Below, piece by piece: positions 126 through 41,537 of a stretch of 64,000 nt of DNA. Position 1 is the stretch's first letter; each line of letters starts with the position of its first letter. The notes under the pieces are model-generated. The model had not been told where the DNA came from. It did not search any database and worked only from the letters and a program-made list of their open reading frames with translations. The translations under genes were made by a program, and so were the position numbers. The DNA lies in the NCBI RefSeq assembly GCF_026151205.1, contig NC_087079.1:11770635-11834634 (forward strand), read 5' to 3'. The DNA is from Bolinopsis microptera (Eukaryota > Ctenophora > Tentaculata > Lobata > Bolinopsidae).

Positions 126-402
126 GTAGCTAAGAAGTTTAGCTTGGTATAATTAATTAATTAAGACTGCACTACTACACTGTTACCATAGTAACAGTGT
201 AGTATTGTTCGTATAGTGACCAGGTGTTTAAACTCCACGTGTCCTAATGGCTAATACGCAGGAACTATTTAAGATGGTCACTGTGTGAGCCTATCAGTGT
301 AGGTATTGTGTTCAGTTGAAATAATAATCCAGGGTTTCAGAAACTTGTTGACTATTTTATAGAGTGTTGAGATTATGATTGTGAAATTGATGGTGTACCC
401 AA

Positions 403-3400
403 TTACAAAAAATACAATAAATCTATCAGTATCTGGAAAGAAAATTAAAGAAGAGTTTTGTCCTAATTGTCAATGACCTGGACAGTTATAGCCATGAGTA
501 CCATGAAGGCACACTACTATTACTACTGACCTGAACAGTAGCAATGAGTACCATGAAGGCACACTACTATCACTACTGACCTGGACAGTAGCCATGAGTA
601 CCATGAAGGCACACTACTATCACTACTGACCTGGATCGGACAGTAGCCATGAGTACCATGAAGGCACACTACTATTACTACTGACCTGGACTGTAGCCAT
701 GAGTACCATGAAGGCACACTACTATCACTACTGACCTGGACTGTAGCCATGAGTACCATGAAGGCACACTACTATCACTACTGACCTGGACAGTAGCCAT
801 GAGTACCATGAAGGCACACTACTATTACTACTGACCTGGACAGTAGCCATGAGTACCATGAAGGCACACTACTATTACTACTGACCTGGACAGTAGCCAT
901 GAGTACCATGAAGGCACACTACTATTACTACTGACCTGGACAGTAGCCATGAGTACCATGAAGGCACACTACTATCACTACTGACCTGGACAGTAGCCAT
1001 GAGTACCATGAAGGCACACTACTATCACTACTGACCTGGACAGTAGCCATGAGTACCATGAAGGCACACTGTACCATACTCCACCGGTCCACCCTTATCT
1101 TATTACTGTTCTGTATCTTCTGGTCTTTGTTTCTCTGAGCTTTACTGAGTTGGAGTTGAACTTGAGTCTTGAAAAGCTGACTCTTTATGTTATCTACTTG
1201 TTTCTGAAGGGATAAAAGCGTATTGGTAAATCATTTACAACGTTTGAAAATTAAGTTACTAACATGGAGAGATGTGAAAATCGCGTAAAGTGAAGCAAGT
1301 TACTAACATGGAGAGATGCGAATCCCGCGTGAAGTGAAGCAAGTTACTAACATGGAGAGATGTGAATCCCGCGTGAAGTGAAGCAAGTTACTAACATGGA
1401 GAGATGTGAATCCCGCGTGAAGTGAAGCAAGTTATTAACATGGAGAGATGTGAATCCCGCTTGAAGTGAAGCAAGTTACTTACATGGAGAGATGTGAATC
1501 CCGCGTGAAGTGAAGCAAGTTATTAACATGGAGAGATGTGAATCCCGAGTGAAGTGAAGCAAGTTACTAACATGGAGAGATGTGAATCCCGCGTGAAGTG
1601 AAGCAAGTTATTAACATGGAGAGATGTGAATCCCGAGTGAAGTGAAGCAAGTTACTAACATGGAGAGATGTGAATCCCGCGTGAAATGAAGCAAGTTACT
1701 TACATGGAGAGATGTGAATCCCGTGTAAAGTGAAGCAAGTTATTAACATGGAGAGATGTGAATCCCGAGTGAAGTGAAGCAAGTTACTAACATGGAGAGA
1801 TGTGAATCCCGCGTGAAGTAAAGCAAGTTATTAACATGGAGAGATGTGAATCCCGAGTGAAGTGAAGCAAGTTACTAACATGGAGAGATGTGAATGCCGT
1901 GTAAAGTGAAGCAAGTTATTAACATGGAGAGATGTGAATCCCGAGTGAAGTGAAGCAAGTTACTTACATGGAGAGATGTGAATCCCGTGTAAAGTGAAGC
2001 AAGTTACTAACATGGAGAGATGTGAATCCCGAGTGAAGTGAAGCAAGTTACTAACATGGAGAGATGTGAATCCCGCTTGAAGTGAAGCAAGTTACTTACA
2101 TGGAGAGATGTGAATCCCGCGTGAAGTGAAGCACCCTCTTCTGCTGCTTTGTCATCTGTGTACACTCCGTCATCAACATAAACATCCATGAAGACTGTTT
2201 TACTCGTCAACTTGCTGTAATAGGGTCCTTATCAAGTCATAATATAGAAAATTTGGTCTTGTTGCGGCCAATCACCTGTTGTTATGGGGTCAAGTAGAGA
2301 ATTCACCGTGGCCTGGGTGACTGAGGCCACGACAGTTTACTCGCAGTGTTATGTATTAATGCTTTTCATACAAAGTTACAACAACGTCTTCATGTTATGT
2401 ATCCTGGGTTTGGACAGTATATTACCCGCTTAAAATATTTCCATCGCGTTACATAATACTCAATAAATGTAATAGATTTGTAGTGTTTTAATTAGTTTAA
2501 ATACACTGCACAATGCACATATCATAAATAACACTGTAAGCTGTCGTGGCCTGGGTGACTGATGTTAAAATTATATATGTATTATATAAATTTAAATAAT
2601 ACCTGAATTTGTTACTAAAGCAGAACTTGTAGACCCCACTCTCTTTAACAGTAAAGGTATGTGTTCCGTATGACTCGCGGCGGTTTATTGCTATACGCTT
2701 CAGCGAAGAGTCGTATGCTTGAAAGTCAATGTCTAAATCTCCTCCATCTACAACCTGACACATATTAATTATTAATTATATAGAGGCCATAATATCTAAC
2801 CAGCTACAGAGTACAAATTCAGTGATCGACCGAGTCCTTGGTTTTACCGATGAATGACGATTTTTCCTCGGCCTCGGCCTTGGTCAGAAGAATCATTCCT
2901 CGGTTCGCCTCGGCCTCGGTAAAAAATCGAGTTGCCATTCCACGGCCTCGGCAAAATCTGAAGATTTAACCGAGGATTTGACCGAGGAGTCAGAAACCTG
3001 GTTAACTAACGTCTTTTTGTGATAACTCGCCTTCATCCCAGGCAAAATATATTGAAATGAAAATGTACATGTACTTATTATGTATTATGTAATATAATGT
3101 TTAAGTTATGACTGATACGTCCATACTTACATAAACGGCAATCCTGAGAAATTCTACCTCATTCTACATCCTAATCGTTAGCGAAATATCTGATACAATT
3201 AATACTTTTTTCCTCGGCCTCGGTTGAAAAAATAAAACCTCGGTTCTCCTCGGCCTCGGTTAAATTACAATATGCCTTCCTCGGCCTCGGCCGCAAATCC
3301 TACCCTCGGTCGATCACTGAGTACAATATTAACAATATGTTGAGGCAGAGTTACCATATTGTCCTGTGAACACATGTTTTGTTAACAATATGATTCGATT

Positions 3401-3601
3401 AAAGCTGATTTCAATTCTACACAGCTTTCATATTCTTACCTGAAAGTCCATCTCGATCTCATGATTCTCTTGAACATCCTCATAAAAACACTGTTCCTTT
3501 CTAGCAGGAACTTGGAAGGTGAGTGCTGTTTCCAGAGAGGCGCTGGTTAATGTCAGGATGTAAGACACCACTATCAAATTAGCCACTGTAATTGTCATCA
3601 T
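403..3601 (-). CDS. p24/TMED-family cargo receptor (EMP24/GP25L), five exons
   Basis: Exons on the minus strand are 3440-3601, 2603-2754, 2100-2214, 1036-1203 and 403-432. All introns are GT..AG and the phases agree (0, 2, 0, 0), giving about 208 residues; p24 proteins usually have 200-230. Exon 1 starts at ATG 3599-3601 and encodes a hydrophobic signal peptide followed by the start of a GOLD domain with the first conserved Cys (EQCFYED). Exon 2 carries the family signature VVDGGDLDIDF and the second Cys (YKFCFSNKF). Exon 3 ends the GOLD domain (KTVFMDVYVDDG). Exon 4 is the coiled-coil stalk and the start of the membrane segment (VDRWSMVQCAFMVLM), as in TMED1/5. Proteins of this family cycle between ER and Golgi and sort cargo into COPI and COPII vesicles. 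Exon 5 is a very short tail (ILIDLLYFL, stop) lacking the usual FF/KK sorting signals, so it is the least certain part. Two minisatellites touch exons 3 and 4. Confidence 0.88.
476..1072. repeat. 50-bp minisatellite spanning the exon 4 / intron 4 junction
   Basis: About twelve 50-bp units. Read on the minus strand, each unit contains the last 36 nt of exon 4 of the p24 gene, then CAG|GTCAGT and a short stretch of intron. The genuine junction is the copy at 1036. The array fills most of intron 4 (433-1035), so it presents about eleven extra copies of the same 5' splice site. One unit carries a 5-bp insertion near 635. Confidence 0.93.
1248..2132. repeat. 44-bp minisatellite spanning the exon 3 / intron 3 junction
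   Basis: About twenty 44-bp units fill intron 3 (1204-2099) of the p24 gene. Read on the minus strand, each unit contains a copy of the last 33 nt of exon 3 followed by CAT|GTwAGT. Four copies, including the one used as the exon 3 donor (2099), read GTAAGT; the others read GTTAGT. Units differ by a few substitutions (for example CGCGTG, CGAGTG, CGTGTA). Confidence 0.93.
2820..3319. mobile_element. Non-autonomous TIR element with internal CCTCGG repeats, in p24 intron 1
   Basis: A 500-bp element is bounded by inverted termini CAGTGATCGACCGAG and CTCGGTCGATCACTG. The flanks are similar but not identical (AGTACAAATT left, AGTACAATATT right), suggesting a decayed 8-bp duplication. The interior holds many GGCCTCGG / CCGAGG motifs near both ends and an AT-rich middle. 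The CAG..CTG ends and the flank length resemble hAT elements; no transposase is encoded. Confidence 0.7.
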
Positions 3602-3734
3602 CTCCTGCGCCTTCCCTAGTCACCATTTATTCATTATTCTCACAGTTTCTTATTATTAAATCAGCAATATTTCGTGGCACTTTCAGTAAACGTTAAAGTG
3701 CAGTAAAATGCAGAGTAAGGATATAGCTATATAG

Positions 3735-4389
3735 TATATATATATATATATATATAATAACATCTATAAACAAAAGAGCACCTAAAGAGGCTCAGCAAAG
3801 TGCTGGCCTATTTACGCTTACAAAGACTCATTCGTTCAATATGTCTCAAAGTAAATAAACTCCTCCATCCTACTCTATCTCTTGCTAAGTTCACTAAGTT
3901 GGTAAAATCATCTTCATTTTTCAAATAAATTTGTCTCTTAAATAGGTCCTTTTTCACAATAATATCATACAAATTAGTCCTGTGTCTACCCACTCGTCCC
4001 TTTAGTGTTTGACATCCTAGTGTAGCAAATAACAGAGACTGGTATGCAGGCGTGTCGTTGTAACTGCGTAGAACATGACCTAGCATTGTCCACCGTGCCT
4101 TTTCCACTCTCTCGGAAAGGGGCCTGGTCTGGGTACGAGCGTAGAGGGCCTTGTTAGATATTGAGCTATAATAGATGTGTAGGATGCGCTTGAGGTGCTT
4201 CCTCTGAACAACATCTACAGACTCTAGAACATGCTGAGGTACGGCCCAGCAGCAGCAGTTGTACAGGAGCACTGATACTACTAGTGAGTCGTAGAGTTTG
4301 ATCTTTCTCTTCTCAGTTATCTGACTCCTCTCTGATCCCTGGCACCACAGCTTGTCAAATGACCAGAAGGCAGAGTTAGCTTTATTTAT
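3735..4389 (-). mobile_element. 5'-truncated LINE: C-terminal part of a non-LTR retrotransposon ORF2
   Basis: One open frame runs on the minus strand from about 4389 to 3808 (roughly 190 codons). It contains motifs typical of the C-terminal region downstream of the reverse transcriptase in many LINEs: a Cys/Trp segment (LLYNCCCWAVP), a KHLKRIL block, SNKALYARTQTRPLSERV, RWTMLGHVLR, KGRVGRHRT and DRVGWRSLF. It ends in a TA-rich tail (3735-3765) on the 3' side, as LINE insertions often do. The catalytic reverse transcriptase is missing, so it is a dead 5'-truncated copy. The intact frame suggests a fairly recent insertion. Confidence 0.82.
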
Positions 4390-5461
4390 TCTATATTAGT
4401 AACATCCTGCTCTGATCCAAGCTTAGTACCAAGAAGCGTCTCGTTTCTCCACTCCTCTTTTCCTCTTTTCCTCTTAGTTCATTATCCCACTCGTCACAGG
4501 CACCAACTTCTTCTAAATACACTCTGGTAAACTTTGTCTTTGTGTAGCTATATAGTATAGTATAATAATATAGTACTACACTACGTTTCAATAAAATATA
4601 TAATATAATTATCATTCCAGCCTATATTGTATTTTTTGGGCAGTCAAATTATCAAATTTGTGAATCATTTATTAATAAAATAAAATTTACATGTCAGTTC
4701 AATAATAACGCAGTTAAAGTTTTATTAAAAGTTTAATTAAAGTTTAATTAAAAGTTTGTTATTGTGAGTACACAATGACTTAGTATCAGAGGAATTTAAT
4801 TCTCCCTTTGAATCAATCAAGCTAGATGATTTGTTGTAAATACTGAGATCAAACTATCAATTTACAGGCTATTGTCAAACATGTTGCAAGGCGTCATCTT
4901 CAGTGACATAAGCCTAAAAATTTTAAAAAGTTAGTAAAACCCAAAATTCCTTTAAAAATCTGAACACTCTTAAAACGGTTTTATAATTAAAATTAAGATG
5001 TTAGGAGTAAGGGAAGGCCAAAAGGATTTATAGTGTTTATTCCTAATATAATAGTTTATTCCTAATATAATAGTTTATTCCTAATATAATAGTATCTTCC
5101 TAATATAATCATAATAACTTATAATATAAGGGTCACACTTATATCCTAAAATATATAATCAAAAAAAAGTTACACAGATACCATATTACACTTAACTAAC
5201 AATCTAGTAAAACTCTAGGAACTGTAAACATCTAACTATTAAATTTTTTTGTCGTTTAATCCATGATAAAATGTCGTTTTCATTATTTATTGCTATCAAT
5301 ATTAAGAATCACCTTTTAATTCATCAATGACTTTACAGACATTATGCTTGTTGATCGAATCTCACAATTGATATAAATTAGATTCGACAAAATCAGAAAA
5401 AAGTGAATCAAGTAAAAATCAAATAACAAGTTAATTAACAGTACAAAATGTTAGTTTAAAT
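4390..5461. other. Intergenic, no gene seen
   Basis: AT-rich sequence between the LINE copy and the hydrolase gene. A 19-bp repeat (TTTATTCCTAATATAATAG, four copies, the last degenerate) lies at about 5037-5110. The 3' UTR of the hydrolase gene probably falls in 5200-5461; a minus-strand AATAAA occurs near 5286. Confidence 0.6.
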
Positions 5462-6634
5462 TTAACCAAAGTTTTTAACCAATATATCTGAACATTCCAC
5501 CATAACCTCATCAATGAAGTTAGTGGCAGGAAACAAGTGCTTGACATAAGAGCAATGTCCACCACAAGCAAATAACCAGAAGCACATGTTAGGGTCCTTC
5601 TCCATAACCTCAATATCATCTAAATCTATCGGAGCAGTGGGATCATCATCAGCATTGATAACAATCAATGGCTTAGACAAAGGCGAGTTTTCAATCCTCT
5701 TATGAGGAGAAGTTTTGTTCCTAAAATCAATTTCATCTGTAAATGCACCATCTGCCAAGGGATTGAGGCCAATCTTTTGAAGTTGAATCAAATCGTACGG
5801 GTGTTCCATTGATAATGAGGTCAAACCTGCAAATCTTTCTTTACCAATTTTTTCATAAACTTGTTTTGTAAACTCTTCATTACCTTTCCTTCCAGATATT
5901 AACAGATTTTTTGTATATTTAGCCCATGGTTTTACATAAAGGGAGTAATAGGGTTCCACCATCAGTTTTTTGTCGGCTGAATCTGCATTCCATTGAACAC
6001 TGTGGACTACCCCTCCAACAACATTGTCATCTACTTCTGCACATGTCAAATAATCTACAATACAATAGCCTCCAAAACAATCCCCTGTTAGAATAATTGG
6101 TCGACCTTTAAATGTCTTGTTCATGTACGAAACTATAGCACCAACTTCATTAAATTTTCCGTAAGGCATGCTAATCTGAGGGGTCCTGAATGGTGTATTG
6201 CATCTGCCTCTATAATTGCACATATAAATGTCTGGATATCCTGCATTCAAGTATGATGAGCACAGAGTCTGTACTTTAGTTGAGTAAGTATTCTCGTTCC
6301 CTCCTGGAAACATCAAAATGATGGGTTTACTGGTATTAGTATTGAAATCGTTACTGGATGTGTCTTCAAGCTCCATCCTATCTATTCCAACTGCTCCACC
6401 GTCATAAAGTTCTATGGTTGTCCTTGTAGTTTTCAAGTTTGGTGATTTCTCATATTTGGTTCGAAAGGCAAATGCAAAGAGTGGATTTAAGGCAGGTAAT
6501 GGTGTTTTGACCAGCTTTTTAGCAAATCTGGACTGGTCCCTGACAGCACTTGCTAGGGATCCTTTTCCAAATATTTCTGGAACAGCCCAGCGCTTTAGAA
6601 GGGAATGTGTTTTCTGAAAAGTAACTCTTGACAT
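5462..6634 (-). CDS. Alpha/beta hydrolase, ABHD1/2/3 (YheT) family, Cys at the nucleophile position
   Basis: Single uninterrupted frame of 390 residues from ATG 6632-6634; upstream in-frame codons lack another ATG. ABHD1/2/3 relatives are usually 350-420 residues, membrane-associated lipid or ester hydrolases. Visible fold landmarks are an oxyanion-side strand and loop IILMFPGGNENTYS (residues about 105-118), an NYRGRCNTP segment (140-148, matching the family's N-x-RG-x-S/C region), the nucleophile elbow GDCFGG (184-189), the acid loop VINADDDPTAP (325-335) and the histidine loop CGGHCSY (357-363). The nucleophile position of the GxSxGG motif is Cys186 (codon TGT) rather than Ser. Asp330 or a neighbour and His360 complete the expected triad. 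There is no N-terminal membrane helix as strong as in vertebrate ABHD1-3. It has no introns, unlike the other genes here, so a retrocopy origin is possible, although the frame is intact. Confidence 0.88.
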   Translation of the reverse strand: MSRVTFQKTHSLLKRWAVPEIFGKGSLASAVRDQSRFAKKLVKTPLPALNPLFAFAFRTKYEKSPNLKTTRTTIELYDGGAVGIDRMELEDTSSNDFNTNTSKPIILMFPGGNENTYSTKVQTLCSSYLNAGYPDIYMCNYRGRCNTPFRTPQISMPYGKFNEVGAIVSYMNKTFKGRPIILTGDCFGGYCIVDYLTCAEVDDNVVGGVVHSVQWNADSADKKLMVEPYYSLYVKPWAKYTKNLLISGRKGNEEFTKQVYEKIGKERFAGLTSLSMEHPYDLIQLQKIGLNPLADGAFTDEIDFRNKTSPHKRIENSPLSKPLIVINADDDPTAPIDLDDIEVMEKDPNMCFWLFACGGHCSYVKHLFPATNFIDEVMVECSDILVKNFG

Positions 6635-7406
6635 CAAGTGCAATCAACCTAAAGGACGGTATTGGATCAACAAATTTCAAACATTGTCAATTAATAACTA
6701 TCAATTTGATTAATTAAGACATCTGAATAGTCTAATTTAACACAGCTGTACACGATCAAGACCTAATAACACAAGTCAGAAATGAGTTTTGTTAATTTTA
6801 AATGCTATCACGGTTCAAAAAATATACACATAATATCACAATAACCAGCTATATAAGTGTCACTAAAAAGTATTCAAACAATATACACATAATATCACAA
6901 TAACCACTAACCAGCTATATAAGTGTCACTAAAATGAATTTTGAGTGTCATGACACTTTTGACAGTGAAAGTGAAATGGCTAGTAACTAGAAAGTGTTCC
7001 TCAGCAATGCCTTCACTCTTAACTGCCTCTGTTAGGAAAATCCAGTAGTTCGTTAATGTGTCATAACATTGTAACAAGGCAGTGCCAGTTTAATCTTGAA
7101 AAAGCTTATAAAAAACTCAATTTTGTGACTTTCCTGTTCAAAACTCAGAATATGTCTCGAAACTATTCAAATAATATGTTGAATTTGGTTGGACTACTTC
7201 AACTGAGCCAAAAATGAGGAAATGGTCATTGATTTGGCAAAATTTTGAGTTTAGACGCAAAGAGGTTGTACATGGCACATACTTTGGATATGCTTGTGAA
7301 TCAACTATATAATAATAACAACTTTCAAGAAACGTTGGTCTGTTATGATTTAACCTCGGAAAAACCTATTGTGGGAAATAAATATTCAAACAATCTTAAA
7401 CAATAA
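6635..7406. other. Upstream region of the hydrolase gene; short duplication
   Basis: No gene is seen. A stretch of about 50 bp with ATATACACATAATATCACA is present twice (about 6820-6870 and 6880-6935), a direct duplication. The minus-strand promoter of the hydrolase gene should lie in 6640-6900, but no clear motif stands out. Confidence 0.5.
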
Positions 7407-7473
7407 TCTGTCTGTCAGTCAGTCAGTCAGTCTGTCTGTCTGTCAGTCTGTCAGTCTGTCAGTCTGTCAGTCT

Positions 7474-7504
<31 letters not shown>

Positions 7505-7856
7505 AGTCAGTCAGTCAGTCAGTCAGTCAGTCAGTCAGTCAGTCAGTCAGTCAGTCAGTCAGTCAGTCAGTCAGTCAGTCAGTCAGTCAGTCAGTCAGTC
7601 AGTCAGTCAGTCAGTCAGTCAGTCAGTCAGTCAGTCAGTCAGTCAGTCAGTCAGTCAGTCAGTCAGTCAGTCAGTCAGTCAGTCAGTCAGTCAGTCAGTC
7701 AGTCAGTCAGTCAGTCAGTCAGTCAGTCAGTCAGTCAGTCAGTCAGTCTGAAGTCAGTCAGTCAGTCAATCAGTCAGTCAGTCAGTCAGTCAGTCAGTCA
7801 GTCAGTCAGTCAGTCAGTCAGTCAGTCAGTCAGTCAGTCAGTCTGTCTGTCTGTCA

Positions 7857-7894
<38 letters not shown>

Positions 7895-8533
7895 AATTTC
7901 CGACGGCTTAATCAAGAAAACGGTAAGAGTTACGGGGCTGGTTTTTTCGGTATAGTGCCTACAAAACTATGAGGAGCCAAATGGTAAAGGTTTTTTAAGT
8001 CGGTTGGTGATAAGTGGTTTAATTGATGGTTTTGTACCACAAATATTACATAAAATGGCTCACATTTTCTCCCTCCTCGCTCTCTCTCCCATTACTGCAT
8101 ATTATGTAGCGTTGGTACATGTATCATAATTACACTGTCATGAATACTATAAGCTTTTTAGAGGATGGAGCGCTAATAGCAGTCTGTTTGGACTGTAGAG
8201 AGAGTTCATACTTTCATGTAATGCATGTTTTCAAATATATTAGGCGGGTGTGGTGCGGAGTTAATAAGGGTTAATTTCTAAAACGATTTAAATAAAAATG
8301 GAAAGCGGTTCAGGACGGGAGTGATGAGATGTAATAGTCGTGGTACAGGGTGTACGAACTTAATTATCCACGAGAAAGAACTAATTATGCAATAATGTTA
8401 AATACTATTGGATACGTGAGGGCACTCCAAATAGAATTGCTCACCCAATGCAGGTTTTGACTCAGCGGGTAAATACTCCTACCCTTTTTAACTGCAGCAG
8501 TGAAATCCCAGCCATTAGGGCTTGTTACACTTG
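7407..8533 (+). mobile_element. Non-autonomous Helitron copy A
   Basis: The 5' end reads A|TC followed by a GTCT/GTCA-rich tract. The body (about 7895-8050) matches copies at 17009, 28782 and 49330 (motif AAAACGGTAAGAGTTA). The 8150-8515 part matches the 49330 copy in reverse. The 3' end is decayed: GTTACACTTG|T stands where the better copy has GTTACACTAG|T. No Rep/helicase frame is present. Confidence 0.72.
7411..7894. repeat. (AGTC)n / (TGTC)n microsatellite, about 480 bp
   Basis: Nearly pure tetranucleotide repeat, AGTC in the centre and TGTC at both edges, with one AAGTC break near 7750. It sits just inside the 5' end of Helitron copy A, where the other copies also have short TGTC/TG tracts, so it probably expanded from the element's own sequence. 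Confidence 0.95.
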
Positions 8534-9385
8534 TATATATATAATAACACAACAAAAAAATGCACTTGCTGTAAATTTAAATCTAAATCTGATATTTTAA
8601 CTGCACTACCAATTTTCATCCCTCTTTCTCCTCTAAGAGCAATTATTATTCTTTTCCTGATAAATGTCATCGCCTCACTTTATCATGGACCTGATTTTCT
8701 AGATAGTTTATCAGCTAACTTCAGAAAAACCTATTGTGTGCCTGTATTTAGTAAAAAGCCACTTCAAAAATTACGAATTGAATTTGTTTACATTGCAGTA
8801 GCTAAACAGCAACAAATTATAGCTTTTTCAATCATAGGAAAAAATTTTTATTTACCACAAGACAATCAATACATAATGTTATATTCATAAATAAATTCAA
8901 ATTTCAATTTCAATCACATATACAGTACGCCGCGCACACAGCCACAATTTGCAATTGTTGAGAAATTCTTAGGTGCAGCTGTAGGCGCCGCGCACAGGAT
9001 CTACTTAATTGTTATCTTACAATTACATGTCGCATTTCTTAATTACTCGAGCCAAAATTTCAGAAGCAAAATAATTTAAAAGATATTTCCATGTCGTTTG
9101 CGCAGTACAGGCCGTGAGCACTCCAAAAACCGCGCGCTCATTATTTGTGATTGAGCGTGCGCCTCTGTGAACTTCAGTACCGCTCAAGCATGAAGTACTA
9201 AGCAGTACCTAGTTCTGCGTCAGGCGTAGACATTTGTAGCACACGTTTCATTCAACTAATCAATTATGTGACATGTAATTGTATTAAAGCAAAAAGAATA
9301 TTAATTTTAGTAATAATTGACGTAAACATATAATGTGTTTAAATATCTATAATCTAGCGAGTTACTAATACTATTAGTCCTATGC
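8534..9385. other. No gene recognised
   Basis: A 122-codon frame (8522-8890) has no recognisable motifs and AT-biased composition; I do not call it a gene. From 8930 on, short CG-rich words (CCGCGCAC, CGCGCGC) appear, a composition shared with 9100-10400, 13990-14100 and 15840-16210. Confidence 0.45.
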
Positions 9386-9625
9386 CGTCCAGAGGGCACC
9401 CGATACACTAGACACAATGCTCAAATAATTGATAGGTCGGATACTTCAACTTACATGAGTACCACTGTGCCCTGCTCGGATGCCTTCCGAAATAGCTTTT
9501 TTCATAGATCTATGCTGAAATGGAATAGTCTACCAGTATGTATCCGGCAGTCAGAGCGGATTTCTACTTTTAAGGCCAAACTGATCAAGTACCTCTGGGC
9601 TGCCGATACAGTCTGGCCAGATTAG
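9386..9625 (+). mobile_element. LINE 3' fragment: end of a non-LTR retrotransposon ORF2
   Basis: A single frame of about 79 codons ends at TAG 9623-9625. It carries the common end of LINE ORF2 proteins: TYMSTTVPCSDAFRNSFFHR, then MLKWNSLPVCIRQSERISTF and KAKLIKYLW. This matches the widespread pattern of a basic block, WNxLP, then FKxxLxxYL. The upstream reverse transcriptase is absent. It is a different LINE lineage from the copy at 3735-4389. Confidence 0.75.
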
Positions 9626-10964
9626 CTCATCAGTTGCAGTCTTATGAGTCTAAGAAATTTGTTTTTGTTGGTTACAATTCTGTCCGTCCAATTTCCTATC
9701 TGCTTGTCCTTTTCTTTTTTCTTATCAGTTGTGACGGAATTGTAATGAACAAAATCCTTATAATTATTGATGATATGTTTGATTACTTGTTAATGAATAA
9801 TGTTTGTCATTCAAATTTGGTAGACGGCCCCAACGTTAATGAGGCTCTTGCTATGTGTTGGTTCAGCCGAATTAATTATTATATAATCAAGTTTATTTTT
9901 CTCGTTAGTTATTTTACAAGCATCACCCGTTAAAGCACCACGCACCAACAATAATTCAATTCAGAAAACTATGGAAAATTACTTTGCAAAGGAGGAAACT
10001 TCAAGTGTAATTATTACTAAGAAGAAAAAGAAAAAGAAAATCTTCAATTCCAAATGAAGTCCTTTCTAATAGCCCACACCCGCTCATAAAGCATGTTTCA
10101 GTACTTCTTGGAATGGCTGACAAAGTCTTGATTCACAATGTCAAGTGGTTGCTCTAACCAGAGCCCTCTCGCTTGCAGTAGCGCGCGACCGCCGTATACA
10201 CATGGCTATGTGAATTCTACTTGTGAAACAAGCGCGTCACGCAGTACGCGTATACATTGACGGATGTTACTCGTCTAAATTTTTTCGAAGTAGCGCGCGC
10301 CGCTTTCTTCTCGAAATGTTATGGCACGAGCTACGAAGTAGCGCGCGCCGGGCCAGATCATTCACAATGGTCAAGCGTATACATGGCTATGTAAATGGTA
10401 ACGGAACCGATTGCATTATATTTAATAATTAAACGCATAATGCAAATGAATATTTTTGGTTTAATCACCAGAAACATTTCATAAATGTATATAATATGAG
10501 TTAGTAGTAGAAAGTATAACAATATAAATTGAGATTTTTTAAAAACAAATAGTGATTTTAACTTTGAGATAAACTGCTATATTATAATATTTTTGTACCA
10601 ATGTTCACCTAACTTAACGTCTCTCACTGACACCATCACCCGGCAACCAATTTTAAAGTAAAATTTATTAACGATCTGACTACAGACTGGCGGTCAACGT
10701 TCCCCGTATATGGTATAGTAGCTCAACGGAGGGGGTAATCAGGGCACGTGTTAATGAAAAATGTACGTGTCCTTCCACAATCCCTTCTGTTGGGTCACAC
10801 GTTATTGGGAACTGAGATCGCTATCGTGTAACTAGAAGCAGTATATGCAAAGTAACTTTGGTGATAGGTGATAGGCAATATGAAATTACACATCTTACTT
10901 TAACTTTATCCCGTCACCCATGGATTTATTAATTAACGGCTGGTGGTGGTGTCATCGTTCGTCG
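9626..10964. other. No gene recognised; CG-word-rich repeats
   Basis: The sequence alternates between AT-rich stretches and short blocks such as AGTAGCGCGCGCCG (10293, 10335) that recur within it. ORFs here (for example 10223-10432) run through these blocks and show no domain. It is probably decayed repeat. Confidence 0.45.
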
Positions 10965-11296
10965 TACCCAGAAAACCTTACCGCCTGCTGGGCTTGCTAG
11001 AGGTGATAGATTTTCAACAGCACGTATGGCGTCGCGCGTCACGTCAAGTTTACCTTTCGCACGCTGCATTGAGCCTAGTAGTCATGACAACGACATTTCT
11101 TTGCAAAGTTTAAAAGCTGTGATCATTTATTTAGCCCAAAATCAAACTTTTCGGTTTAATTCAGAATCTACGTTGTCCCCAATTTGGCTCCTGGGGAGCC
11201 AACTGTAAATTCACGAGACGGAAATTTTGTTGAAAACCGGAAGGTTCTATCTATTTTACTTTTGGAGATATACCCCAGATGGTAGGGTTTGCTGGG
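10965..11296 (+). repeat. 332-bp dispersed repeat, copy 1
   Basis: Nearly identical to 15213-15546; I see a C/T difference at 11252 and a change in the last bases. The better copy has imperfect inverted ends (TACCCAGAAAACCTTACC against TACCCAGCAAACCCTACC), pointing to a short TIR element. Both copies hold the same 60-codon ORF starting MASRVTSS, which is most likely non-coding. Confidence 0.85.
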
Positions 11297-13824: not shown

Positions 13825-13826
13825 CG

Positions 13827-13882
13827 AACTACAGCAAATCTATCTTCTCTACGATCGTAGAGAAGATAGATTTGCTGTAGTT
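13827..13882. repeat. 56-bp perfect palindrome ending the 52-bp array
   Basis: The sequence reads the same on both strands around a centre at 13854/13855 (ACGATCGT). Each arm contains AGAGAAGATAGATTTGCTGT, a variant of the end of the 52-bp unit. The array therefore ends in a head-to-head inversion with no spacer. Confidence 0.95.
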
Positions 13883-15212
13883 GTCAGTTTACGGACAAAT
13901 AAAGTCGAAAAGCATTAATCAGAATATGTTTTAGGCTGTCCCAAAATTTCGGATTCTTTTTCTGGAGTTTGAAATTGGCGGGAATTTTAAAACTCTCGGT
14001 ACCAAACCAATATTTTCAGCGCAGAGTTTTAGCGCGCGGCAAGAGCACACACGTATTTTTGCATTGAATCCGCGCGTTATTTGCACGTGCACTTCTACAG
14101 ATTAAAATTTGGAGAGGGCCCTTACTGCTTACATTACTAAGTTGTTATGTAGTAATATTGTGAATCTGTCCGAAACTGGAAACAAATCTTGTAAAATTTT
14201 ACGAATAGAAGTTATAGTATTACTTGACTGTAAAAATTTACTGAGTTTCACTTCCATATTTCAGGATCCGACCGCTGATATTAAAATTGAAGAGTTAGAT
14301 TTCATTGGAACATGGAATTACTGTAATGGAAAATAAAACAGGTCTTGCTGAGCACTGAGGATGAAGAAATGTTATGTGGGGAGAAAATGGGCTACTGGAA
14401 GTGGACCTTCTTAAACAAAGACGACTTTCACAAAATGTTTAAAAGATCACGGTCGCGGCATCGAACCTTGGACGCTTCCCCTGCCACTGTCAGACACTCA
14501 AATTGGAATAGTAGTGTGCGCTACTCGAGCTGTTGATATAAGAGTTCTTCGGTGTTATTTATATAATTGTAATATGTAATGACTGACAGTGCGAGATATC
14601 TTTTTTTGTTTCTATTTGATGTGTTTAGTGTTTGTGTTGCATTCTAATATAAACCGCGTATTAGTTTCGTGTCAATTTTAAATTTGATAAGTTTATCTTT
14701 AAACTGTATTTATTAGCAGTAATAGTTACATTTTGGTATTATCCATATATTTATTATTGTAATACTGTTGTATAATGCTGTTTCTTCCTCATTGTAGCTT
14801 ACATATAGGATAGCATACTTTGCTATGATCTTTAATCACAGTTGACAATACTTGATTAGAGTTAATGATTGTACGCGTTTGAAATCTTGATTTGATATAA
14901 TCATTATAACCTTTACTAATATTCAGATGAATGAATTTGATGTTTTATTTTTCCTCGGCACTATTGAAAATCCTTTAAGGGATAGAATCGGCACTGTCAA
15001 ATTTCTTTAAAAGGTTCGTAAACGGAATTACAGTCGATCTCCTGACAAATTTATGCCGAAAATTTGTTTTAATACGCGCAGCAATATGAAGCCCGCGGCG
15101 TTCGCCGGGGTGCCCTACCTCCCTGCAACCCCCCCCCTTCCATTTCTCCCCCCCTTCCTTCTGCTTTCTTTTGCAGCTGAACTTATATGAACTCTCATGC
15201 AGCTCTCTTGCC
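13883..15212. other. No gene recognised; two unexplained small ORFs
   Basis: Frames at 14109-14336 and 14345-14536 have somewhat protein-like composition: the first ends DFIGTWNYCNGK, the second includes GEKMGYWKWTFLNKDDF. An AG after a pyrimidine run at about 14263 could be an acceptor. I recognise no family and cannot link them, so I do not call a gene. A C-rich tract lies at 15117-15165. Confidence 0.35.
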
Positions 15213-15546
15213 TACCCAGAAAACCTTACCGCCTGCTGGGCTTGCTAGAGGTGATAGATTTTCAACAGCACGTATGGCGTCGCGCGTCACGTCAAGTTTA
15301 CCTTTCGCACGCTGCATTGAGCCTAGTAGTCATGACAACGACATTTCTTTGCAAAGTTTAAAAGCTGTGATCATTTATTTAGCCCAAAATCAAACTTTTC
15401 GGTTTAATTCAGAATCTACGTTGTCCCCAATTTGGCTCCTGGGGAGCCAACTGTAAATTCACGAGACGGAAATTTTGTTGAAAACCGGAAGGTTCTATTT
15501 ATTTTACTTTTGGAGATATACCCCAGATGGTAGGGTTTGCTGGGTA
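15213..15546 (+). repeat. 334-bp dispersed repeat, copy 2
   Basis: Same sequence as 10965-11296, same orientation, 4.25 kb apart. The ends form an imperfect inverted repeat, TACCCAG..CTGGGTA. No clear target duplication is visible beyond a possible TA. The two copies bracket the 52-bp array. Confidence 0.88.
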
Positions 15547-16633
15547 CTCAAAACGTTTCGCGGTTGCGAATGCCAGCCCATCGAGGAAAATCTTTTTACT
15601 TTGTATTTTAACCATTATAAAGTATGATTAGTCGGATATAGTACTGAGTTCAAACAGTCCCCGAAACGAAAAAGCAAACATTTGATTTTTGTTTCGGCGA
15701 CTGAATCGTTGATAGGCCGGCAAATATTTGTTGTCGAGTAGTGTTGAATACTCATATTAACATGATTATTGATTTAATTTAGGAATTGTATATAACCATC
15801 TTTGACCAAGTTTAATTGTTAATGAGAATGCACCCGGCCCAGCACTGGGCGCGCGCGGCGGCTTTGATGTTAGCGGCTACAAGCTTGAAGCTAGGCAGCG
15901 GCAGAAAAAACGCCGCGCGCGTTCACAGTTCAGCGTACGGCTTTTCGTTTTTGATTTCACAAATGACAAAGCAACTTTTAATGATTATTAATGGAATTAT
16001 CGGATATTTATAATTCAATATGTATTGATTCTTCTGTGGAAAATAAAAATTGTATTTTACTTAAATTGTATTTTACTTTGTTACTAGATCTTAAGTCTTT
16101 GAACCTAGAATTTTTGTATCACGTTGTAACCCCCACAGTCGTTTTACTATATCGTTTCACTTTATCGTCCTGACGATACAGGAGGAGCCGCGCACTTTTC
16201 CGCGGCGGGTCATACAACGTATGACAAAGAATTTTATATACATTTTTAAATTTTATGATAATGTGTGATGATGTTTGTGTCGTCATAATATTTGATTTGA
16301 TTTTATTTGCTGATTGGCGTAATATATATATAAGATGGGTTTGGGTTAATTGTTAATTGACGATGTCAATTCATCTCAGCTCGGCGCGGCACAGCTAGTA
16401 GCGCATCGCACAGTAATGCATTGCGCTACAAGGTTTGGGTTTCAATGTACTGGGGAGTACTGGGGAGTAATTACATAAAATGATAGTTTATTGATTGGTA
16501 AAATTGATGTGGTCCACATTCAGAAGATCGTGATCGATGCTAAATTCACACTCTTTGAAATGGTTAACTTCATAATTCGAAAACCGAGTAAAATAGAATA
16601 AATCGCTAAATAAAAACACTTTTCAAGTGTAGA
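15547..16633. other. No gene recognised; CG-word-rich patches
   Basis: CG-rich patches at 15828-15940 and 16180-16215 (CCGCGCACTTTTCCGCGGCG) and a partly palindromic patch with CGGCGCGGCACAGC near 16380. The ORF at 15816-16013 crosses these and shows no domain. Confidence 0.4.
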
Positions 16634-16794
16634 AACTTTTTTCACCTTTCGGTTCTTTAAATGAGAAAACCAGCCATTCCCTGATATGATCTTGTGGTTT
16701 GGTATAGATAATTTCTACACTTTATCTATACCAAACCACAAAATCAGGGAATGGCTGGTTTTCTCATTTAAAGAACCGAAAGGTGAAAAAAGTT
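16634..16794. repeat. Large near-perfect hairpin (about 70-bp arms)
   Basis: The arms contain TTCACCTTTCGGTTCTTTAA / its complement, ACCAGCCATTCCCTGAT and TGTGGTTTGGTATAGATA, separated by a loop of about 12 bases. A few bases near 16688-16695 do not pair. No flanking duplication is evident, so it may be a local inverted duplication rather than a transposon. If transcribed it would form a long hairpin RNA. Confidence 0.92.
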
Positions 16795-17008
16795 AAAGCT
16801 GTTTAGTCCCAGTTTTACTAGTTATTGCAGGTAACTTTTTTTAAATTTTTACCTGTGATATCTTAGAATGCGAGGTTGGATTTTGATCGTTTTTTCCCTA
16901 CTTTTTTGTCTCCAGCAGCTATATCGCGTGTAAACAAATTCTTAAACTGACCTTGTCTAGTCTTAAGCAATACCTGAATACTATTACTAAAGCCATTTAT
17001 ACTAATAA

Positions 17009-17540
17009 TCCCAATAAGTGTGTGTGTACATGTGTTTGTAATTTCCGAACGGTTTAATTTAGAAAACGGTAAGAGTTATGGGATTGGTTTTTTCAGTATA
17101 GTTTTGACAAAACGCCGGGTCCAGAGTTAAATTTACTCTAATGCGGCTGGTTTCGACTGAGCGAGTTCATACTTTGCACTGTTTAAACTTTCGCATTTCA
17201 AATGCGATAATGAAGTCCTGGCCGTAGGTACTGGTTCAGTGGCGTAACGAAAGGCCCTGCTGACCCCGCTGTGCAGGGGGGCGCCGTCTTAGGGGGGCGC
17301 CAAATCGTCGTTTGAATGTGGGACAATTTCAAAAACTTAACTAAAGTACTAGCAAAACTGCGCGTTTTGCTCTAGATACACACTTTTTTAGAGATTTTAC
17401 CGGCGTATTCTCTAAAATCACCTAATTTGTTAAATTTTAGGGAGGGGCACTAAAAGGGGAGGGGGCGCCAACAGGGGGGCGCATTTTTCGGCAGGGGGGC
17501 GCCAACAGGCAACGTTACGCCACTGTACTGGTTACACTAG
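17009..17540 (+). mobile_element. Non-autonomous Helitron copy C, interrupted by a hAT-like element
   Basis: The 5' end reads A|TCCCAATAAGTGTGTGTG. The conserved body AAACGGTAAGAGTTATGG follows, and the end is GGTTACACTAG|T at 17540. The element at 17237-17525 lies inside its 3' part and duplicates 8 bp of it. The 3' hairpin is decayed. Confidence 0.78.
17237..17525. mobile_element. hAT-like MITE copy 1 (289 bp) with 8-bp target duplication
   Basis: The ends are CAGTGGCGTAACG and CGTTACGCCACTG, flanked by an exact TACTGGTT on both sides (17229-17236, 17526-17533). The interior has G-rich runs and GGGGGCGCCA blocks near both ends. Eight-bp duplications with CAG..CTG ends are typical of hAT. 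No transposase. The same family is at 17920, 58099 and a fragment at 21827. Confidence 0.95.
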
Positions 17541-17750
17541 TAATGACAATAAAGTCACAAAAATGTGCCATTTTAAACATTATGGTGCCCAATAATGATG
17601 GATTTACTATCTTGAGCAGTCCATGTGCGTGGAAGTATGGGAAAATGCTCGGTTAATAAACATATTCAATCATGCCACTAATTATTTTTCTGCTCCTTTC
17701 AATCTGTGTTGTCGAAGAATTCAGTATTATTATATTTTATCCTACTAGTG

Positions 17751-20700
17751 ATGGTTAGAGCAGGACTGGGAGCGCAGGAGGTAAAGAAACTGAGGTTCTG
17801 GCAGTTAGCAGTTAGTGAACTGGTGGGAACTCTGTTTGTGGTACTCTTCACTTCTCTTCTTGTCAGCAGACATGATGGAAAAAGTGTTATCATGACCGTA
17901 AGGTAATTGTATGTTGCTGGAGTGGTGTAACAAAGGGCCCCGCTGACCCGCTGCTGTGCAGGGAGGGGGGGGGGGGCATCTTAGCTTGGGGGGGTGGGGG
18001 GGGGCGCCAAATCATTATTTGAATGTGGGACAATGTTGAAAAACTTTTCTTCTGGATGGTTACCGTAATGGGTGCCAAATGCCTAGCATGACATATTTAC
18101 TTACTAACTTGCACTTGTGTAGTTCTGTAGAAGCATTAGTATCGGGCGTTGCCTGCTACAGGCTATCCCGAAACTAGAAGCTTGCTTTAATAATAATAAC
18201 TGAGATACTGAGGTACTAGCAAAATGCGCGTTTTGCTCTAGAAAGTTCACACTTTTACAGAGATTTGACTGGCGTATCCTCTAAAATCACCTAATTTGTT
18301 CAATTTTAGGGAGGAGCGCCAAAAGGGGAGGGGGCGCCAACAGGGGGGTGCCAACAGGCAACCTTACGCCACTGTGTTGCTGATTAATTTATATGACCGT
18401 ACGCGTAAGGTAATTGTATATTGCTGATAACTCTATATAAAGCTTATATTAACAACATGGGAATATAGGTGACCACTAACAAACAATATAAAACAAATCC
18501 ATTCTTTCAGTCTGGTAACTGGTCTAGTTTACTCTACAGTTCTGTTTATATTTGGTAACCATGGTTACTTCAATCCAGCCATCACTATATCTCTCTTTTG
18601 TGCTCAACGGGTATGGAAAGTTTCACTCTAGTTTTTAGCAAAGATTGTTTAAAGAAATGTTTCCACAAGGGGAGCATATTTGAAACTTCACAGCCATTTA
18701 CGTATCAGTTCAGGAGGTGAACGGGATTCCCAGTTCTGGGAATCCCGGTACCGGGATTGGCAATTTTGAGCTATCCCGGTCCCGGTCTCGGTCAAATGCT
18801 GATTTATTTATTTATGATCCCGATCCCGGTCCCGGTCCCGGTCCCGGTTAATTCGGGATTCTTGGTCCTAGTCCCGGTCAATCACTCAAATTTGCCGGGA
18901 TTTTGACCGGGATCTTTTACAAAATTTCATTCACTGTGATTTTAAGTTTTTCCTTTCATTCATTGTGAATTTCATCTTTAAACATCCTCTGAGCCAAATA
19001 CAACAATGTTTAAAATTGCTAAACAAGTTTGAGTTATAAATTATGATCCCCACTAATATCCACCTCAGATCCCCACTAATATCCACCTCAGATCCCAACT
19101 AATATCCACCTCAAATCCCCACTAATATCCACCTCAGATCACCACTAATATTTACCTCAGATCCCCTCTAATATCCACCTCAAATCCCCACTAATATCCA
19201 CCTCAGATCCACACTAATATCCACCTCAGATCCCACTAATATCCACCTCAGATCCCACTAATATCTACTTCAGATCACCACTAATATTTACCTCAGATCC
19301 CCTCTAATATCCACCTCAAATCCCCACTAATATCCACCTCAGATCCACACTAATATTCACCTCAGATCCCCACTAATATCCACCTCAGATCCCCACTAAT
19401 ATCCACCTCAGATCCCCTCTAATATCCACCTCAAATCCCCACTAATATCCACCTCAGATCCACACTAATATTCACCTCAGATCCCCACTAATATCCACCT
19501 CAGATCCCCACTAATATCCACCTCAGATCCCCACTAATATCCACCTCAGATCCCCACTAATATCCAGCTCAGATCCCCACTAATATCCACCTCAGATCCC
19601 ACTAATATCCACCTCAGATCCCACTAATATCTACTTCAGATCACCACTAATATTTACCTCAGATCCTCTCTAATATCCACCTCAGATCCCCACTAATATC
19701 TACTTTAGATCCCCACTAATATCTACTTTAGATCCCCACTAATATCTACCTCAGATCCCCACTAATATCCACCTCAGATCCCCACTAATATCTACCTCAG
19801 ATCCCCACTAATATCCACCTCAGATCCCCACTTATCTACCTCAGATCCCCACTAATATCTACTTTAGATCCCCACTAATATCCATCTCAGATCACCACTA
19901 ATATCCACCTCAGATCACCACTAATATCTACCTCAGATCCCCACTAATATCTACTTCACATCCCCACTAATATCCACCTCAGATCCCCACTAATATCTAC
20001 TTCACATCCCCACTAATATCCACCTCAGATCCCCACTTATCTACCTCAGATCCCTACTAATATCTACCTCAGATCCCCACTAATATCCACCTCAGATCCC
20101 CACTAATATTCAACTCAGATCCCCACTAATATCCACCTCAGATCCCCACTAATATCCACCTCAGATCCCCACTAATGTCCACCTCAGATCCCACTAATAT
20201 CCACCTCAGATCCCACTAATATCTACTTCAGATCACCACTAATATTTACCTCAGATCCTCTCTAATATCCACCTCAGATCCCCACTAATATCTACTTTAG
20301 ATCCCACTAATATCTACTTCAGATCACCACTAATATTTACCTCAGATCCTCTCTAATATCCACCTCAGATCCCCACTAATATCCACCTCAGATCACCACT
20401 AATATCTACCTCAGATCCCCACTAATATCTACTTTAGATCCCCACTAATATCCACCTCAGATCCCCACTAATATCCACCTCAGATCCCCACTTATCTACC
20501 TCAGATCCCCACTAATATCCACCTCAGATCCCCACTAATATCTACTTCACATCCCCACTAATATCCACCTCAGATCCCCACTAATATCTACTTCACATCC
20601 CCACTAATATCCACCTCAGATCCCCACTTATCTACCTCAGATCCCTACTAATATCCACCTCAGATCCCCACTAATATCCACCTCAGATCCCCACTAATAT

Positions 20701-23086
20701 TCAACTCAGATCCCCACTAATATCCACCTCAGATCCCCACTAATATCCACCTCAGATCCCCACTAATGTCCACCTCAGATCCCAACTAATATCCACCTCA
20801 GATTCCACTAATGAGAATGTGTGTTTATGTGGTGAGCCAACTAGCCGGAGCAATCGCAGCGCAACTCATCGCCAGTCACATCATGTTAACTACTTGGTAC
20901 TCTAGTTATGGTCCTGGTGCCACTATGCCTAGCACAAGCGTCAATAGTTTTCAGGTTATCTTTCAGTAATATGTAGGACATGTTACTTATTGATTTAAAA
21001 TAAACGTGACAGAACTTAAAAACCCTTGTAAATTTTGTAAGTTTATTTTATGAATATGAAGGAATAAGAGATCATTTGATACCTTTTTGTTATTTTTGTA
21101 TATTAGCGATCTCAGTGCTGATAATTCCGTCACACATTTTAAAATATACGAGGGATGTTTAGGACACCCTGACAAGGAATGCAGTATAGCAATATTTGAT
21201 GACCTGGAAGTGTTGGGAATTGTTAACATATCACACAGTTTAAGCTAATAAAACACTAAATGCATACAAAAAATAATGGCGGGTTAAAATGTGGCGGAAT
21301 TTTCGAATAACCGCCAAATTTAACCCGCCATAATTAAACGAGCTAAGGTAATTGATAATACCGCTTATTTTCAGCTGTTTTTAGCCGAGTTTGCAGGAAG
21401 CGCTGTTATCTCTGCAGCCATCAGCACTAAATGCTCCGGAATGATTATAGGACTCACCATTACTACAATAACTGCTATCATGGTATTTTGTTAATTCTTT
21501 GTAAAACCTACTTTATTTAACAATTCAATGACAATAAAATACTTATACAGCCTTGTTTACCTTCTATTTTGCATAAAGTTATGTTTTCAGTTTCCATTCG
21601 AAATGGGCTGTTTGAATCCAGCTAGAGCGATAGCAACTAACATCGCATCAGGCAAAGTGGGCGAATATAGCTGGGTAAGATAATATCTTATTTAGAGTGA
21701 TAGACTGTAGTTTGACACAGTGTCCCAAACAAACAAATCCTAACGGCACCATGAAGGGTGTTTATATAACTTATGTTTACAATTATTTCCGGGAATTATA
21801 TCCTCAAAAAGTCGTGAACACTGAGGCAGTGGCGTAACGTTGCCTGGTGGCAGTTTTGCTAGTACCGTAGTTAAGTTTTTAAAAATTATCCCACATTCAA
21901 ACGACGATTTGGCGCCCCCTAAGATGCTCACAATATTACGTGACATGCACTCAAACTCGCGCATAAAAATGCACACAGTCAAGAATGACGAAAACATATT
22001 ATTGCACCCCACTGTCATCTATGGCACTAGGAATTTGAAACAAAGTCTGCTTCCAAAATTTTAAGACGCTAGCTTAGAGCTACATAAGTACATAAAGAGC
22101 GAACCACCTGAGAAACACAAAAAAATATCTCCAAATGAGTAGAGTTGGACTTTCCGTTCCATTTGTTCCGTGGAACGATATTTGACGAAAGTCGATTATC
22201 TTGAGATCTGAATGGTAGATTTTCTTTAAACTTGTCAGATAGTTACATGGCTATAATACGGATAATCTGTGCGAGTTTGGGCTAATTTCTATGTGCCAAA
22301 ATTGAGATATCACCTCAAACACAAGAAAATATCTCCAAATGAGTGAAGTTGGACTTTCCGATCCATTTGTTCCGCGGAACGATATTTGACGAAAGTCGAT
22401 TATCTTGAGATCTGAATGGTAGATTTTCTTCGAACTTTCCAGATAGTTACATGGCTATAAGACGGATAATCTGTGAGAGTTTGGGCGAATTTATATTTGC
22501 AAAACTTTAGATATCACTTCAAATACAAGAAAATATCTCCAAATTGGCGGTATGTCAAATTTGTCATATGCGTATGGCGCGATGACAAATCAATATACAA
22601 AATAAAAACGAAGAACATCTACCATGATACAATTGCGCGGCTTTAACTATGCTTTTATTTGAGGTCGTTAGATATTAGGTCTAAACCTAATACAGTAAAA
22701 CCCAGATTTATGGCAGCTTACCCCCCCCCCCCCCCCCCCAAACTCCGTGGTAAATCAGGTTGTCTCAACTCACAGTTCTTGTTTTTACTTTCGATAACTA
22801 AATCCCCCACATGATGTGATGATGTACTTTTAGGGGCATCACCCTTCATGAATCACGAGTAACGAGTAAGGGAATGTTAACATTTACCGGTAAACTAGTT
22901 TTCAGTAACACAGTAATAAGTAATTAGAGTAACTATCTGGAATAAATTTCCCAGGTGTATTGGTTGGCTCCAACTTGTGGGGCTGTCTCAGCGCGACTCC
23001 TCATGTTAGCTGTGGACAAGATAGAGATATACCCGGAGGAGATAGACCAAGCTAGACACAAGCTTCTCAGCGATCACTCAGACTGA
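17751..23086 (+). CDS. Aquaporin (major intrinsic protein), six exons
   Basis: Exons are 17751-17902, 18511-18610, 20802-20954, 21375-21482, 21591-21674 and 22955-23086. All introns are GT..AG with consistent phases (2, then 0 throughout); the product is 242 residues with stop TGA 23084-23086. The start is ATG 17751. The protein forms a six-helix membrane channel for water or small solutes. Exon 1 has helix 1 (FWQLAVSELVGTLFVVLF). Exon 2 has helix 2 and the first NPA motif (GNHGYFNPAITIS). Exon 3 has helix 3 (YVVSQLAGAIAAQLI). Exon 4 has helix 4 (LFLAEFAGSAVI) and the start of helix 5. Exon 5 has the second NPA motif (GCLNPARAIATN) with the selectivity Arg kept. Exon 6 has helix 6 (VYWLAPTCGAVSARLLML) and a short cytosolic tail. 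Spacing from the first NPA to helix 3 matches AQP1 residue for residue. The Asp that follows NPAR in aquaglyceroporins is Ala here, so the subclass is unclear. Introns 1, 2 and 5 are full of repeats. Confidence 0.92.
17920..18374. mobile_element. hAT-like MITE copy 2 (455 bp) in aquaporin intron 1
   Basis: Same family as 17237. Left end GAGTGGTGTAAC (decayed), right end TTACGCCACTG, with exact 8-bp duplication TGTTGCTG at 17912-17919 and 18375-18382. It begins only 18 bp after the exon 1 boundary. It is longer than the other copies because about 150 bp are inserted at 18047. Confidence 0.93.
18047..18198 (+). mobile_element. SINE-like insertion inside MITE copy 2
   Basis: Comparison with copies at 17237 and 58099 shows an extra segment of about 150 bp between GAAAAACTT and AACTGAG. 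It ends in a short (AAT)n tail, as many SINEs do, and contains CGGGCGTTGCCTGCTACAGG. I see no clear RNA polymerase III A or B box and no exact target duplication, so the SINE label is tentative. Confidence 0.5.
18393..18426 (+). repeat. Duplicate of the aquaporin exon 1 / intron 1 junction
   Basis: The sequence ATGACCGTACGCGTAAGGTA.. repeats the end of exon 1 and its donor (17892-17919, ATGACCGTAAGGTAATTG), with four extra bases. Removing the MITE and one target copy makes the two copies adjacent, about 38 bp apart. It is therefore an older tandem duplication of a 5' splice site, later split by the transposon. Confidence 0.85.
18711..19037 (+). mobile_element. Truncated hAT-like element with CCCGGT repeats
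   Basis: Starts CAGGAGGTGAACGGGATTCC, like the complete element at 36365, and follows it through the TCCCGGTCCCGG repeats to GCTAAACAAGTTT. There the homology stops and the 23-bp array begins. The right half and right terminus are missing. Confidence 0.85.
19045..20801 (+). repeat. 23-bp array (about 77 copies) carrying the intron 2 acceptor of the aquaporin gene
   Basis: The unit is roughly CCCCACTAATATCCACCTCAGAT, with higher-order blocks that recur (for example the TATCTACTTCAGATCACC run). The last unit supplies the 3' splice site of aquaporin exon 3: CTAAT branch-point-like word, CCACCTCAG, then exon at 20802. Most units contain the same CTAAT..CCTCAG arrangement, so the intron ends in dozens of potential acceptors. 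Confidence 0.95.
21827..21925. mobile_element. Fragment of the CAGTGGCG hAT-like MITE in aquaporin intron 5
   Basis: Begins CAGTGGCGTAACGTTGCCTG and matches the 58099 copy to about GGCGCCCCCTAAGATG. No matching right terminus or target duplication is found nearby, so this is a truncated copy. Confidence 0.75.
22122..22545. repeat. About 205-bp tandem duplication in aquaporin intron 5
   Basis: The phrase AATATCTCCAAATGAGT starts at about 22123 and 22328 and in part again at 22531. The intervening sequence (TGGACTTTCC, GGAACGATATTTGACG, GATTATCTTGAGATCTGAAT) is repeated with a few substitutions. A run of about 18 C lies further on at 22721-22739. Confidence 0.88.
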
Positions 23087-23106
23087 CACAGTCTTGCAGG
23101 ACTGCA

Positions 23107-41283: not shown

Positions 41284-41537
<254 letters not shown>

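Follow-up and report, generated by a model that had tools for sequence, protein, structure and literature searches.

Mirage-type tandem arrays across exon-intron borders of a ctenophore, with a suggestive lean towards 5' splice sites

The window, by which we mean the whole stretch of 64,000 nucleotides analysed, belongs to contig C8 of a genome of 264.65 Mb in 232 contigs, and the models of its two genes considered here were rebuilt from open reading frames, splice signals and phase. The gene on the minus strand encodes a p24 protein; four of its exons fall within the window, and a terminal exon precedes the window's first base. The predicted product of 219 amino acids matches PF01105 (E 3.1e-40, profile positions 1-182 of 182), and among the solved structures compared, its closest PDB match is TMED5. 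Its exons and border arrays are:

3440..3601, minus strand: TMED5-like exon 1, coding (gene model, Pfam and PDB relatives)
2603..2754, minus strand: TMED5-like exon 2 (gene model, Pfam and PDB relatives)
2100..2214, minus strand: TMED5-like exon 3 (gene model, Pfam and PDB relatives)
1036..1203, minus strand: TMED5-like exon 4 (gene model, PDB relatives)
Region L009, about 100 to 165 bp before window base 1, minus strand: TMED5-like terminal exon
474..1070, minus strand: array 1, 50-bp unit, 11.8 copies, at the 5' splice site of TMED exon 4 (Tandem Repeats Finder)
1253..2133, minus strand: array 2, 44-bp unit, 20.0 copies, at the 5' splice site of TMED exon 3 (Tandem Repeats Finder)

According to the unit printouts, the unit of array 1 consists, in gene orientation, of 31 exon and 19 intron bases (CAG/GTCAGTAG, the slash marking the splice site) and that of array 2 of 33 exon and 11 intron bases; the arrays share 35 bp with coding exon 4 and 34 bp with coding exon 3, respectively. 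The first-pass annotation had placed the terminal TMED exon at 403-434, a candidate that we reject: the real exon, encoding the conserved TMED tail VYLLKQLFKEDK, precedes the window in L009, and intron 4 is therefore 1137 bp long. The donor of exon 4 still carries array 1 after this correction, and the remaining borders that bear on the claim are upheld by family profiles and PDB relatives. The same intron holds a 41-bp array (window 1-127 and the end of L009) that ends 49 bp short of the acceptor and spans no border.

The plus-strand gene encodes an aquaporin in six exons, from 17751 to 23086. Its product matches PF00230 (E 3.5e-25, profile positions 1-220 of 222), and aquaporin 1 is its closest PDB match among the solved structures compared. 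The relevant features are:

17751..17902, plus strand: aquaporin exon 1 (gene model, Pfam and PDB relatives)
18511..18610, plus strand: aquaporin exon 2 (gene model, Pfam and PDB relatives)
20802..20954, plus strand: aquaporin exon 3 (gene model, PDB relatives)
21375..21482, plus strand: aquaporin exon 4 (gene model, PDB relatives)
21591..21674, plus strand: aquaporin exon 5 (gene model, PDB relatives)
22955..23086, plus strand: aquaporin exon 6, including the stop codon (gene model, PDB relatives)
19045..20812, plus strand: array 3, 23-bp unit, 77.6 copies, at the 3' splice site of aquaporin exon 3 (Tandem Repeats Finder)
17897..17919, plus strand: duplication copy 1, covering the exon 1 donor, AAG/GTAATT, with the exon ending at 17902
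18404..18426, plus strand: duplication copy 2, within aquaporin intron 1
17920..18374 (edges approximate), plus strand: MITE-like insert between duplication copies 1 and 2

The unit of array 3 joins 11 intron bases ending in CTCAG to 12 exon bases (unit printout), the exon part containing a branch-point-like CTAAT, and the array shares 11 bp with coding exon 3. The two copies of the donor duplication are identical at 22 of 23 positions, and the insert between them has inverted ends, AGTGGTGTAA and AGTGGCGTAA, with TGTTGCTG flanking it, by eye, on both sides. A MITE-like element with termini similar to CAGTGGCGTAAC is represented, by a copy or one of its ends, at 17237, 17514, 17920-18374, 21827, 63786 and 63837, some of these places lying in or near the aquaporin gene. 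A 13-bp array (TGCAGGTGCAATG, about 38 copies, many units with the word CAGGTG) occupies 23103-23602; as it begins about 17 bp past the aquaporin stop codon, it is a 3'-UTR or downstream array. Elsewhere in the window, a single minus-strand reading frame at 5462-6643 encodes 393 amino acids resembling an alpha/beta-hydrolase (PF00561, weak and below the cut-off), and there are very long simple repeats of GTCA (about 121 copies, 7410-7891) and AG (about 125 copies, 41286-41534). A dispersed repeat, presumably a recent mobile element, has two copies at 10965-11296 and 15213-15544, identical at 331 of 332 aligned bases.

The TMED5-like and aquaporin genes thus contain three arrays and one two-copy duplication whose units run over a splice border, at donors as well as at an acceptor, confirming the placement in the first-pass annotation apart from the misplaced terminal exon. 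The array units, of 44, 50 and 23 bp, are in no case a multiple of three in length, as expected of intronic copies, and by reading they are unrelated to one another, which had also been claimed. Many of the units keep the AG/GT splice signals; the gene models take the exon-proximal splice copy in each case, yielding near full-length proteins, and this is the copy predicted to be used in the cell. That the coincidence is produced by wrong exon borders or assembly errors is, in our judgement, the most improbable of the readings weighed here. One border was indeed misread, the gene models of a further region discussed below (L016) are without a convincing family match, and the evidence base is a single assembly; however, the TMED and aquaporin proteins are near full-length and align with solved relatives, all introns of both genes run GT..AG with matching phases, and the array copies carry point differences in the unit printouts, unlike simple assembly stutter.

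The first-pass annotation knew of no named class for such arrays, but one exists, and the window arrays are mirage-type minisatellites. According to the available extracts of the amphioxus reports (PMC3087553, PMC3902484), mirages are tandem repeats spanning exon-intron boundaries, named in Adh3 and found also in the globins BflGb6 and BflGb9, in TnC (troponin C) and in PGBD5, and they occur at both 5' and 3' borders. Regular splicing is apparently undisturbed by them, as far as the accessible text of PMC3087553 goes, and, again from partial sources, length instability has been reported for amphioxus mirages, and mirages have been proposed in lancelets as raw material for new introns. The likeness to the arrays described here is close in the portions of these sources at hand: the units span the boundary at 5' and 3' sites, many of them keep the AG/GT signals, and those of Adh3, at 10-72 bp (PMC3087553), cover the range of our arrays. 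The differences are that the host is a ctenophore rather than a lancelet, that array 3 reaches about 78 copies, that their frequency has been tallied in one gene family (4 of 87 introns), and that the amphioxus globin units, as given in the same partial sources, are longer, at 150-160 bp. A literature search, subscription papers lying mostly outside its reach, found mirages reported for no ctenophore. Two other systems are comparable in part. Human internal tandem repeats in segmental duplications also have units at exon-intron boundaries, but, in the available part of PMC2812944, roughly half of them fall within coding exons of recently arisen primate paralogs and alter the transcript, whereas the coding models here keep the length of their relatives. 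The Rogers model of intron gain by tandem duplication of AGGT, as cited in the accessible text of PMC3087553, likewise duplicates a splice-site-bearing sequence, but the duplications here sit in existing introns.

It had further been argued that chance would rarely hit borders so precisely. We assessed this with an even-placement model, in which a duplication of unit length u is equally likely to fall anywhere on the intron (pre-expansion length n0) or its edges and is lost only if wholly exonic; about 2u/(n0+u) of the arrays then span a border. In the two window genes, 3 of the 6 intronic arrays do so against 1.27 expected (P = 0.08, with n0 approximate and the two-copy duplication omitted), so that the claimed improbability does not follow from the window by itself.

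A larger sample came from kinesin genes, chosen irrespective of arrays, whose motor domains were found by PF00225. Out of about 28 clusters, 19 were analysed, two intronless ones served as queries and seven were left out. Exon borders, for the motor domain only, are predictions by a purpose-written spliced protein-to-DNA aligner, whose splice-site weights, like those of the motif scan below, are generic animal values; two aligner exons shorter than 12 bp (L032, L038) were dropped and their introns merged. Arrays were counted at a score of 50 or more and a period of 8 or more, and as spanning at 3 bp or more. The 19 genes contain 87 introns (37.0 kb) and 28 intronic arrays; even placement predicts 3.85 border-spanning arrays among them, and 4 are observed (P = 0.57). 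These four, all at donors (L033, L035, L044, L048), affect 4 of the 87 introns, or about 5%. Stricter score cut-offs give 4 spanning of 24 against 3.65 expected (cut-off 60), 4 of 14 against 2.47 (80) and 3 of 11 against 2.28 (100). The final tally supersedes a first one of 14 genes, 63 introns and 25 arrays, with 2 spanning against 3.28 expected; a second, with overlapping repeat rows merged, had 18 genes, 83 introns and 26 arrays, 4 of them spanning against 3.77. Not a single array lies wholly within an exon in the 15.6 kb of kinesin exon. A scan of the first 63 introns with 20-mers, at 16 or more matches of 20, found a second copy at 2 of 63 donors, 1 of 63 acceptors, 90 of 1260 intron-interior positions and 6 of 760 exon-interior positions; border-centred words were not duplicated more often than intron-interior ones in this set. 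Chance, far from rarely hitting borders, places about 14% of the arrays there (3.85 of 28) because introns are short and units long, and the argument from chance is rejected.

Recurrence is also seen, by reading, in L016, one of 20 random 10-kb regions, which was examined closely for its near-highest array content (32.9%, next to 33.5% in L029) and is thus a biased example. Open reading frames and splice signals point to three arrays with a donor that fits the end of a reading frame (4272-4430, 6706-6930 and 8668-10000) and to one donor duplicated once (7153-7183 and 7203-7233); two further arrays, 6512-6554 and 7745-7898, lie by presumed exons with no clear spanning of a border. In one array, by reading, GTATAAG is shared by the exon and the presumed old intron start, a microhomology. 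The array at 8668-10000, with a 47-bp unit carrying CTA/GTGAGT, 99% matches and more than 28 copies, extends beyond the region examined, and a reading frame runs into it. Pfam gave no match for 8 of the 10 L016 reading frames and weak, below-cut-off matches for 2, and with no convincing match, the provisional labels of dynein-tail-like and lectin-like were dropped as unproven. What the first-pass annotation saw as a general pattern thus holds in so far as such arrays recur, in 4 of 87 kinesin introns and in L016; nucleation at junctions of both kinds is unsupported.

As the best account of these data, we consider it probable that the arrays are mirage-type tandem duplications, tolerated where a working splice site survives. 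Tandem duplication of a short segment across an exon-intron border would come first, probably through slippage in replication or through end-joining at short matching words, and the array would then grow by slippage or unequal exchange. The duplication would survive because the exon-proximal splice copy still joins the same exon, the extra copies becoming intron. Wholly exonic duplications would be purged and those in the intron interior would survive as well, so that most border arrays need no junction-seeking mechanism. For tolerance speak the spanning count in the kinesin genes, which equals even placement, and the lack of any wholly exonic array there. The proposed link to splicing or transcription is putative; the other suggestion of the first-pass annotation, tolerance of a working splice site, explains most of what is observed.

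One may instead suppose that the arrays are selected for, as spare or decoy splice sites or as bulk lengthening very short introns, which we find quite improbable. In its favour, TMED intron 3, whose 896 bp are mostly array 2, would measure about 60 bp (11 + 49) minus the extra copies, and none of the first 63 kinesin introns measured is shorter than 103 bp. At the same array, the exon-proximal site is CAT/GTAAGT, whereas among the other copies, only 3 of 19 have GTAAGT and 16 of 19 have GTTAGT or GTTAAT. Yet at the donor of exon 4 and the aquaporin acceptor, most copies of arrays 1 and 3 look as good as the exon-proximal one; the three arrays have unrelated units, none with a length divisible by three, and a spanning array is present in about 5% of the sampled introns.

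Tolerance under even placement may not fully account for the side on which the kinesin arrays lie. Eight of the 28 span the donor or start within 10 bp of it, against 2.8 expected, or 4.0 if the final 60 bp of the intron are protected (P 0.002 to 0.02); the limit of +10 was picked post hoc, and limits of 0, +5 and +20 give P 0.01 to 0.15. Strict spanning at donors has P 0.11 to 0.27. None of the 28 arrays spans a 3' site or ends within 10 bp of an acceptor, and the difference between donor and acceptor, 8 against 0, has P = 0.008. Two more arrays, in L040 (starts 0 and +5), seem by eye to be border-derived. While the enrichment at distance zero expected by the first-pass annotation is thus absent for borders generally (4 of 28 against 3.85), there is a suggestive lean of the kinesin arrays to the 5' side only. 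Either constraint or a genuine hotspot may lie behind the lean. Additional donors that follow the true one may be harmless, and if an acceptor were duplicated, a second branch point and AG would precede the real one; both the donor lean and the absence of 3' ends in the kinesin set fit such constraint. Against it stands the large 3' array in the window, which constraint would make rare.

The alternative is that 5' splice sites are true duplication hotspots genome-wide, several-fold above other intron positions, with a source tied to transcription or splicing, such as R-loops, stalled polymerase or donor words acting as microhomology. We regard this as unlikely, although two lines of evidence favour it and count against tolerance: the donor-near starts, 8 of 28 against 2.8 to 4.0, and an over-representation of donor-word pairs across the genome. 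Pairs of the donor word AGGTAAGT 14-44 bp apart number 1478, against 40 for the reversed word, while single occurrences differ just 1.35 times (10758 against 7965). The control word GATGAGTA, of the same composition, has 329 pairs, and 106 reversed; a second donor word, AGGTGAGT, has 1285, against 224 reversed. Clusters of AGGTAAGT number 11 on C1 (26.2 Mb), two of them from one dispersed family, and those of AGGTGAGT at least 10 over the initial 21.7 Mb of C1, one sharing its place with AGGTAAGT; the control has 21 in C1-C9 (187.4 Mb), or 20 if places 5 kb apart are merged. Per megabase, donor-word clusters are thus about fourfold those of the control, with P 0.008 for AGGTAAGT, or 0.018 if the two clusters of the dispersed family are treated as one, and 0.001 to 0.006 for AGGTGAGT, a comparison resting on a single control word located cluster by cluster.

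Against a hotspot, strict spanning equals expectation (4 against 3.85), and on C1 alone, 11 against 3 clusters give P = 0.17 after the single-word ratio of 1.35 is allowed for. The word-pair counts are dominated by large arrays, and the two AGGTAAGT clusters of one dispersed family are among the 11 of C1. The test leans to a donor excess at places whose status as exon borders is putative. A 32-bp unit with AGGTAAGT is arrayed at G000:C1 36576-37703 and 761375-762150, and its presence at two distant places makes some donor-word arrays dispersed families rather than border duplications. Compared with introners, a single sequence family dispersed over many introns, the window's three array units are unrelated by reading, and this one donor-word family, at two places on C1, is of putative intronic position. 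The 3' word TTTTCAGG gave 316 pairs against 110 reversed; 4 of its 12 C1 clusters have an equal 26-bp spacing, which may be a dispersed repeat, and this test was set aside. Finally, a motif scan of 48 arrays in the 20 random 10-kb regions found donors scoring 6 or more in 10 against 6.3 expected, a weak excess that vanishes for strong donors (score 8 or more; 2 against 1.8); an acceptor excess over shuffles was absent in the arrays of these regions, at low power, as was a donor excess among the window's 24 arrays.

Overall, arrays across exon-intron borders recur in this genome with a lean towards the 5' side; the data do not establish junctions as general sites of nucleation, and a tolerated by-product of DNA duplication is likelier than a new mechanism. 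The asymmetry between donor and acceptor is testable with existing Bolinopsis Iso-Seq data, going by the available part of PMC10232365. If 5' splice sites were true hotspots, splicing or co-transcriptional DNA damage would leave a visible mark on genome architecture. Mirages were earlier described gene by gene in lancelets; here, in an animal lineage distant from chordates, they affect about 1 intron in 20 of the kinesin sample (4 of 87), which suggests that mirages are a wider, countable by-product of tandem duplication.
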